This document shows positions 40,801 through 64,000 of a DNA stretch of 64,000 nt, piece by piece. Source of the DNA: Lota lota (lineage: Eukaryota > Chordata > Actinopteri > Gadiformes > Lotidae). The DNA is taken from positions 3,757,758 to 3,821,757 of the forward strand of contig JACYXH010000802.1 of assembly GCA_026745465.1 (NCBI GenBank). The letters run 5' to 3'. Made by a program: the position numbers and the translations under genes. The stretch's first letter is position 1; each line of letters opens with the position of its first letter. Below the pieces are notes generated by a model, which was given only the letters and a program-made list of their open reading frames with translations, ran no database searches and was not told where the DNA came from.

Positions 40801-43800
40801 TTCACTCACCCTGGACTTGTTTGAAGTGCATTCATCTTAAAGGCAGAGAGCGAGACCGTTTTTCCACACTTGAGTCCAAAAAAGAATTAATAAGAGAAAT
40901 TACCAGTAGGTTTATCTTAAACTGAATCATTTATCTGAATCTCAGAATTCTTTCATGCCACATTTACATGTTTTACTGCTTTCCAAATGCAAAGGGTTTT
41001 TAAAAATGTAACAAACCTTTTAACTAACTGTTCCAACTGTACCTTTATCATACATTTACATAATAACTTAATGCAAACCTTTTGGTATGTGGGTCAAAGT
41101 GAATTACTGCCAAAACAAAACATAAGCTAGACACAGAGGCAGGGGTAATTGAATCAACTCCGAACAGTGACCTGGTGAAAAACATACCTCAGGGTATGCA
41201 CACAGGAGACCAGAGGAAGACGATCCGGGACAGGCGAAGAGATCTAAAGTACCTTTTCCTCTATCGCTATCACTCAACTCACCCCACATCTGGCGCCTCA
41301 TTCCTATCCACCCCTGTCATGTTTTCTGGGAGAGGGATCTGGAAGCAGCTCTGCGGAAGAGAAGGTGGAAACATGCAGCGGAGGCCAGAGATGGAGGCCA
41401 TGTTTGTTTCCATGAGATCTTCACACACGCTCGCAGGTGCCTGGGACTTTTCCATCACTTGATTTATTATGGAAGGTTGTTAAATTATACAATTATGGAT
41501 ACTGCTTTACAAATACAAGCTGTATTTTCGACCATTAGCATGCATGCAGCGAGTACGTAATACAACTATGGATACATGCTTTACAAATACAAGCTGTATT
41601 TTCGACCATTAGCATGTATGCAGCGAATACGTAATACAACTATGGATACATGCTTTACAAATTCAAGCTGTATTTTCATCTATTAGCATGTTTGCAGCAA
41701 ATATGTATCGTTTATAAGGGGCATTTAATTTTGTTTTTTTGTCAAATGTTGTTTGACAGCGTGATGGTTTCATGTGAACTACCACACCCACCCACAAGTT
41801 TTACATTCCGACACATTTTCCTACTTCAGTGCCCTCCTAGGGACACACAGAGGAAGGGGAACTGTGCATTGTCTGTGTGAATGGATGTGTTTCAGTGAGT
41901 TTGTGGTACAACCCAAACAAACCCGCGCCCCCAAGACCCTACACTAACGCACTGTCATTTTCTAGATGGATCTTCAAGGCATTCGCAAGCAAACGTCCTC
42001 AGAAAAAAAAACAATTTGAAGGAAATAGTTGATGGTGAAACGTGTGGTGCAACCACGTCGTCCTACATCAGAGGAAACCAGTGACATGAGCTAAGCTGCT
42101 GTGTCCCATTGTTTGGGTCCCGGACCTCCGCAAGAAACTTTCCACAGCCATGGGCTTTTTTAGCGGTCAGTGGCACGGGAAGGGGGCTTCGGAAGGGGGG
42201 GGGGGGGGGGGTGATGGGGGGATGGGGAGGAGGCCCCCAACCTGATCTCACATCCTGCTTTTGTTGGGACGCTTTTTGGAATGTTGACGATTGTGTAAAT
42301 ATTTGGTTGAAAATGCTTCTCGGAATGCTTTTTTTTGGTTTGCAAAAAACGTGAACATCTGCACCTCCCGGGCCAAGGTGCGTCAGGACGCGGTGAACAC
42401 GTAAACACAGCTCCCCCCGTGGTTTCTAATGGTTTACTTTAAACGCTTAACATTCTACAAAAATTCTGTCGGAATTTGATTTTACCTCTTGACTGTCTGG
42501 TTTCAAAGTAGCAGCCCTGTCATGGCGCAGCGATGGTCTGCCAGTTAGCGTTAAACAATGGTAAACCCAGTCTTTCCATAATCTATTTTCTCTTAATCTA
42601 AACTCTACGGCTTTAATAATCATAACAACGTTCCTGTCGGGGGGCGAGAAACATACGTTAGCAGGGGCTATCTGGGATGCTTGAGTACACAGTACCCCAT
42701 AATGCATCTTTAATCCCAATGGGAATGACAAACCGACAATCCATCAAACAGCCCCAGCTAAAACCCTCCATGCTGCTTGTGGTATGTGATGATTATGCAA
42801 TAAACGTGAGGAAGAGGAGAGCCCTGCAGATAAAGAGAGTGGTGTTCCTCATCCCGTTTCATTCCTGCTCAGCGTTAGTGCAGATTTACAGAGACAAGCC
42901 GCCGCTGGGCCAGTGGAATGCTTTTACACGCTGTCAAACTGATACCAGGCATTAAAAATAGTCTTCACATTGTGTGGAACGTACTTCCCACTGATCAAAC
43001 ATGCGTAAAAGAAACTGTACTGTCATTTCACAGTATACTTAATATTTGTAATAGTATGTACAGCATGGTTAATACACTGTACTAGTTTGTCCAATATTCT
43101 TGTATGTATGCTTTAACATGTTTCACTAGTACGCATAATCTGCTTCGTGTCAACGCACACCAGCTTCTCAGCAGTAGTCGTGTATCTGATCTAAGGAATG
43201 CATCCAATCCCAGTACAAATAGTTACACAATTACACACAAACATATTAAAGTGCACAAACATTAATTAGATAAAGACAGGAAACACCCCAAGCACTGATC
43301 CAAACTCCCCATTAGGATCCATCTTCTTTCTCTGGTTGAACCGTTTGCCTCTCAACACCCTTTAAGCCAAACATCCAATAAAGTACCCATTTTATCTGAT
43401 CTCAAGGTCCAAAGTACGTCTTGACCTGGTTCTCTATAGGTCCATAGTAACTCTTGACATGGTTCTCTATAGGTCCATTGTAAGTCTTGACCTGGTTCTC
43501 TATAGGTCCATGGTAACTCTTGACATGGTTCTCTATAGGTCCATAGTAAGTCTTGACCTGGTTCTCTATAGGTCCATGGTAACTCTTGACATGGATCTCT
43601 AAATGTCCATAGTAACCCTTGACATGGTTCTCTTTAGGTCCAGCAGGATGGCTCCAACAACCCTCTGGGCTCCGGCCTGGGCTACCTGGAGCACATCTGC
43701 CGACTGATCGAGAAGATCGGCCATCTCCAGGAGACCAATCTCCGGCTACAGAAGCAGATCTGTGGAATTCAGAAGACCAGCCGTGCTGCCAAGACCAGAG

Positions 43801-64000: not shown

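Follow-up and report, generated by a model that had tools for sequence, protein, structure and literature searches.

Introduction

The closest described relatives of the structures reported here are the lancelet 'mirages', in which an intron-exon boundary, 5′ or 3′, is tandemly duplicated in the manner of a minisatellite; they are described in Adh3, the globin genes BflGb6 and BflGb9, TnC and PGBD5 (PMC3087553, PMC3902484). According to these accounts, Adh3 units measure 10–72 bp, AG/GT is present in many but not all units, repeat number differs between haplotypes, and no interference with regular splicing was observed (PMC3087553, PMC3902484). In human, intron 18 of ABCA7 is described as holding a VNTR with a 25-bp unit. 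This array starts at the donor GT of exon 18 and can run to hundreds of copies; single-unit retention was put at 2 ± 1%, and a length-dependent skipping of exon 19 was measured (PMC5954066). Human segmental duplications are described as containing internal tandem repeats at exon-intron boundaries, with 27 intron modifications located there (PMC2812944), and intron gain by tandem duplication has been discussed for the Rogers model, ATP2A1 and potato RdRp (PMC4974935).

Here we describe four minisatellites on splice junctions of two adjoining teleost genes, together with a sample of other loci from the same genome. None of the titles listed in a literature search of open-licence papers described mirages from a fish.

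Results

Four arrays on the splice junctions of two adjoining genes

The window, by which we mean the whole 64,000-nucleotide stretch that was analysed, spans positions 3757758–3821757 of contig C802 (G000:C802) in an assembly of 575 Mb and 867 contigs. With a GT-dinucleotide tract at 27739 excluded, TRF found seven minisatellites in the window with a period of ≥20 and a score of ≥150, and four of the seven sit on splice junctions. The original prediction had named four such arrays from the letters of the sequence; TRF recovers all of them, and all four junctions have GT-AG ends and join in frame. Donors (A2, A3) and acceptors (A1, A4) are both represented, in genes on both strands, as had been proposed. 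The three remaining strong minisatellites (18851, 22951, 41487) were placed at no junction; the last of these, at 41487–41707, is a 74-bp x 3 array deep inside the 5.6 kb intron of the DUF4657 gene, away from its junctions.

A1 and A2 belong to the plus-strand gene, whose joined protein matches Pfam DUF4657 with 27.6 bits against a cut-off of 27. A3 and A4 belong to a cGMP-dependent protein kinase (PKG) gene on the minus strand, the catalytic part of which aligns to a solved PKG1 chain (6.6e-145) and the part around A4 to a solved PKG2 chain (9e-18). Elsewhere in the window, at ~2800–12200 on the minus strand, the list of open reading frames contains SNF2-type helicase exons, which by eye we take to resemble HELLS/LSH. 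The features are as follows, with a slash marking each junction.

37213..38054, plus strand: upstream coding exon of the DUF4657 gene; donor GAG/GTAGGA, phase 0, joining in frame to 43638
43405..43637 (TRF end 43642), plus strand: array A1, 33 bp x 7.2; unit holds the acceptor ttctctatAG/GTCCA
43638..43802, plus strand: exon after A1, opening with the GTCCA that the A1 unit contains; 43647 would also serve as an in-frame start
49702..49829, plus strand: exon before A2, sharing its last 18 bases with the A2 unit
49812..50085, plus strand: array A2, 26 bp x 10.5; unit of 18 exon nt and the donor GTGAGGTA
61069..61402, minus strand: array A3, 46 bp x 7.5 by TRF (units 42–46 bp); exon end CTCACCAACTCACCCTTCATAGTCAG and donor GTAGAG
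61375..61511, minus strand: PKG exon ending NSPFIV-R, with the A3 donor; PKG1 alignment continuous across the junction
62973..63071, minus strand: PKG exon at the A4 acceptor; in-frame join, PKG2 alignment continuous across the junction
63072..63210, minus strand: array A4, units of 39–48 bp that contain the acceptor gtgttctctgtAG and, in diverged form, the start of the exon; the frame of the exon stays open through the array

Splitting the arrays unit by unit located exon-edge sequence within the units of all four, which bears out the proposal that they are built from splice junctions. The A1 acceptor places the first exon base at 43638, joined to 37213–38054 as LSE/VQQDG across an intron of 5583 bp; the AG, the pyrimidine stretch and the exonic GTCCA are all part of the unit. 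Because a second AG, nine bases further downstream and with 43647 as its first exon base, is also in frame, and scores 8.1 against 6.9, the exon share of A1 (~5 nt) is uncertain; if 43647 is the acceptor used, A1 copies no exon. The A2 donor follows the last exon base at 49829, with the join CPQLY-R-PDL and an intron of 1294 bp. For A3 the last exon base is 61375, the join reads NSPFIV-R-LFRTF across 1921 bp of intron, and 26–28 exon nt lie inside the array.

TRF delimits A4 as 63083–63170 (39 bp x 2.3), which leaves 11 nt between array and exon, and degenerate copies extend to ~63210. Its acceptor precedes a first exon base at 63071 and closes an intron of 328 bp; ~17 exon nt lie in the array, where the start of the exon can be read three times in diverged form (14/18 identical by eye). 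The original statement that the arrays lie exactly at splice sites is qualified by the ambiguity of the A1 acceptor (43638/43647) and by the 11 nt that TRF leaves at A4. GC content is 0.427 for the window and 0.42, 0.60, 0.46 and 0.40 for A1 to A4. GC bias was considered as a cause and set aside, there being no consistent GC excess across the four arrays relative to the window.

Intact decoy splice sites within the introns

Splice sites were scored with vertebrate frequency tables. In A1–A3 the exon-adjacent junction is intact and some intronic copies have lost the site. Five intronic donors in A2 score the same as the authentic donor (11.4), and the donor is lost in 4 of 10 units (for example TTGAGG, GGGAAG). 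A1 contains six upstream acceptors with scores of 6.4–8.6, as compared with 6.9 at 43638, and intronic donors in A3 reach 5.1, the score of the authentic donor. In A4 the decoy acceptors at 63158 (10.5) and 63206 (8.6) compare with 12.5 for the authentic site, and a further one at 63119 falls below the reporting threshold. The expectation that the introns carry intact extra splice sites was thus confirmed.

Use of the tested decoys in A1 (6/6), A2 (5/5) and A3 (5/5) would bring in a stop codon at the joint or within six codons of it. A4 is open throughout: splicing to its decoy at 63119, 63158 or 63206 would lengthen the protein in frame by 16, 29 or 45 residues. On the minus strand, A4 and the sequence beyond it (63072–63280) form a single open frame continuous with the PKG exon, which includes the exon-like peptides RNVNQIVRR and RNCIQLVRR that echo RNFNQMV. 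Since the peptides echo the exon and the frame is open, a PKG exon extended by any of these three lengths is possible.

Exon-copying arrays in other genes

We sampled 140 exon-centred loci, chosen by protein-family match regardless of repeats. A 60-locus set, with flanks of 1.5 kb, comprises the best 30 matches each of a myosin and a kinase search; an 80-region set, with flanks of 0.4 kb, comprises 40 of 60 kinesin exons and 40 of the 77 remaining kinase exons. The 60 kinesin exons were hand-picked from the match table, most rows with very long open frames being skipped, and 20 of them were left out of the 80-region set to widen the range of families. Junctions at the sampled loci were assigned from splice consensus and frame, and those of A1–A4 from reading frame and protein continuity, rather than from transcripts.

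An array lies across an exon edge, or within 50 nt of one, at 14 of the 140 loci. In six of the 14, each a further gene, it copies exon bases, with junctions judged by eye:

L016, myosin, acceptor: array copies GACAACTCCTT
L085, kinesin, acceptor: exon-copying array
L091, kinesin, acceptor: array copies GTGGACC
L124, kinase, acceptor: exon-copying array
L134, kinase, acceptor: array copies GTGGTCAAGGTGTT, 47 bp x 8.9
L013, myosin, donor: 22 exon nt copied

At the sampled loci these are outnumbered by arrays that stop just outside the splice signals. In the 80-region set, donor-side arrays of this kind begin at +5 to +15 (L066, L083, L085, L134) or at about +35 (L093), and acceptor-side arrays end 11–47 nt upstream of the AG (L066, L068, L132, L135, L138). 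Arrays that do cross a junction reach up to ~28 nt into the exon.

Two side observations belong to this sample. In a kinase locus, L053, positions 350–628 hold 12.7 nearly perfect copies (99% matches) of a 22-bp unit, with an AGGT word and no known exon edge adjoining the array, and a group of tandem myosin heavy chain genes with a spacing of ~13–20 kb lies at G000:C17:848000–1002000.

Arrays cluster near exon edges in one of two sets

The 80-region set yielded 27 arrays, from which we kept the 20 that were complex with a score of ≥150. Four of the seven dropped were of low complexity (L078, L080, L106, L109), two at L113 scored <150, and one at L126 was unclear; by gap, most of these seven would count as near. 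Edge classes were completed by eye after the script, with L068 and L093 being by-eye placements. In the 20 arrays, 14 starts fall in the interval [-25,+50), from 25 nt inside the exon to 50 nt into the intron, compared with an expected share of ~25% under uniform seeds and kinesin intron lengths (binomial p = 3e-5). The intron-length model was taken from 31 adjacent kinesin exon pairs with a median of 375 bp, residual intron length being available for only some arrays; 8 of these 31 introns are very short (<170 bp), and in introns of that kind proximity to an exon edge is trivial. With every intron length halved, the expected share rises to 35% and p for 14/20 becomes 1.4e-3.

The 14 near arrays divide into four that span the junction (L085, L091, L124, L134) and ten that abut it with no exon bases (L066 twice, L068, L083, L085, L093, L132, L134, L135, L138); the six others start at 90–304 nt (L065, L085, L089, L091, L104, L110). 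The spanning share of the near arrays, 4/14, is what an even spread over 25 + 50 nt would yield. The original prediction of more coincidence than chance would give is upheld for proximity to exon edges; the spanning arrays alone (4/20, p = 0.08) are not significant.

In the 60-locus set, 22 rows were reduced to 15, L027 being a duplicate of L026 and the others of low complexity or scoring <150. Of these 15 strong arrays, five sit at an exon edge, two in L013, two in L016 and one in L057, and ten are at no known edge; the retained L016 donor row had been flagged by the script as low complexity, and without it the count is 4/14. The proximity effect is weaker here than in the 80-region set, and the enrichment as a whole rests on modest samples and partly on by-eye scoring.

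No peak of duplication at the junction itself

The original prediction had ascribed the arrays to duplication seeded at AG/GT junctions. A peak of duplication density at the junction itself was not seen in local-copy coverage, in the spanning arrays or in a word test, which gave mixed results. Among 24-mers centred on a junction, 5/184 have a local copy, as compared with ~7% at 60–200 nt into the intron; at 300–1200 nt, in the long-flank loci and with other exons included, the figure is 1.4–5.7%. The 12-mer profile ramps up into the intron. These profiles exclude the overlapping loci L024, L027 and L031, and neither has a peak at the junction, so the junction was rejected as a repeat hotspot.

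In the word test, spaced triples were counted genome-wide against a reversed control. The donor word CAGGTGAGT gave 744 triples vs 84 for the control (singles, 6864 vs 3894) and TTTCCAGGT gave 183 vs 12. The donor word CAGGTAAGT, by consensus an equally good donor as CAGGTGAGT, was rarer than its control (31 vs 91 triples; 3024 vs 5293 singles), and a permuted word, CAGTGGAGT, gave 74 vs 238 for its reverse. These are counts of hits, of which a single array can supply many, and they are dominated by a handful of long arrays: CAGGTGAGT falls in at least 11 arrays among the matches listed up to contig C93, CAGTGGAGT in 15 (3 up to C93) and CAGGTAAGT in 8. One long array of ~30-bp units, most of them with CAGGTGAGT, lies at G000:C93:1048909–1049847. 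Because composition varies between words and few long arrays dominate, the test gives no support to a donor-specific process, and these mixed results weaken the case for donor words as seeds. With 10 of the 14 near-edge arrays stopping in the intron without exon bases, coverage low at the junction and the words mixed, AG/GT seeding was not supported, and we regard the original interpretation overall as partly supported.

Discussion

A1–A4 are probably mirage-type minisatellites: local tandem duplications that included a splice junction, then multiplied and accumulated up to the edge of constraint. The sampled introns are rich in minisatellites, and a local tandem duplication, by slippage or unequal exchange, may happen to include an exon-intron junction and then multiply. 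Duplications within exons would be removed by selection. In a duplication that straddles the junction, the exon-proximal site would stay intact and the copied exon bases would become intron; because the exon-proximal copy (the first donor or the last acceptor) would still define the exon, such a duplication could be near neutral, and further copies could therefore build up in the intron as presumably silent decoys. With exonic copies purged and straddling ones tolerated, arrays would be expected to reach, and slightly cross, the constraint edge around exons. Donor-side starts at +5 to +15 and acceptor-side ends 11–47 nt before the AG are what would be expected if purifying selection sets the limit. 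Constraint alone does not explain why starts are denser within 50 nt of the exon than at 90–300 nt; protection of the boundary from deletion, or local effects of replication or chromatin, are our guesses.

Other readings account for part of the data. Junction-specific seeding, in which AG/GT or splicing-coupled R-loops or breaks start duplication at junctions above the rate elsewhere, would explain why all four window arrays are on junctions and why CAGGTGAGT and TTTCCAGGT triples exceed their controls, but we judge it unlikely given the opposite behaviour of CAGGTAAGT and CAGTGGAGT among words that vary widely, a coverage that is lower at the junction than in the intron, and the p value of the spanning arrays. 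At the other extreme, ordinary intronic minisatellites could be placed at random in a compact genome, so that with short introns some touch junctions, and a striking window could have been picked. The short kinesin introns, the lack of a coverage peak at the junction, the three window minisatellites at no junction and the 10 of 15 arrays away from a known exon edge in the 60-locus set all fit such placement, but A1, A2 and A3 lie exactly at one end of introns of 5.6, 1.3 and 1.9 kb, and the excess in the 80-region set survives halved intron lengths; we consider random placement alone quite unlikely.

That selection retains the copies, redundant or alternative splice sites being useful, appears very improbable: A4 is open in the frame of its exon and array length in human ABCA7 is described as altering splicing (PMC5954066), but every tested decoy of A1, A2 and A3 leads into a stop within six codons. 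An assembly artefact is hardly credible. Repeats are often mis-assembled, and one amphioxus case is described as wrong in a draft assembly, but the units here are imperfect and distinct at more than 10 separate loci, one of which (L068) is on a 17.8 Mb contig. A bolder reading is that in this teleost lineage the birth of minisatellites is directed to exon edges throughout the genome, for instance by Okazaki junctions that nucleosomes position or by breaks linked to transcription at exon borders; introns would then grow as their ends are duplicated repeatedly, and decoys at thousands of junctions would feed alternative splicing and intron turnover. We consider this doubtful, if conceivable.

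In the literature found, mirages are a lancelet feature and ABCA7 is a single human locus, set against 14 of 140 loci in this fish. If that rate holds genome-wide, such arrays would provide a large natural sample for studying how introns grow, how the spliceosome ignores identical sites nearby, and whether intron gain and sliding draw on tandem duplications that cross junctions. Introns derived from tandem arrays were reportedly described in human by Zhuo in 2007.

Like the published lancelet mirages (PMC3087553, PMC3902484), the fish arrays duplicate intron-exon boundaries, in A1–A4 (A1 only if the acceptor is 43638) and in L013, L016, L085, L091, L124 and L134. Both boundary types are represented, donors in A2, A3 and L013 and acceptors in A1, A4, L016, L085, L091, L124 and L134, and A2 resembles the lancelet arrays in keeping its authentic donor alongside five equal intronic copies and four units without one. 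They differ from the lancelet cases as described in that the host is a teleost and not a cephalochordate, in being sampled across gene families and not in single genes, and in coming from DNA of one assembly.

The ABCA7 VNTR is similar in that its unit directly flanks the exon and includes the splice donor, with decoy donors in the intron, and differs in being a single human locus at which the published description does not present exon bases as part of the array (PMC5954066). The repeats described in human segmental duplications are likewise minisatellites of ~30 bp at boundaries, but there the setting is young paralogues, in which exonic repeats were turned into introns (PMC2812944). In Rogers-type gain, as here, a segment across an intron-exon boundary is duplicated and copied exon bases become intronic; as described, one duplication makes a new intron, whereas in the fish arrays existing introns lengthen (PMC4974935). 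The fish arrays thus match lancelet mirages and resemble the donor VNTR of ABCA7; the structure is already known, and this is a new case of it, in a fish. What stands out is its apparent frequency in a vertebrate genome, in several unrelated genes.
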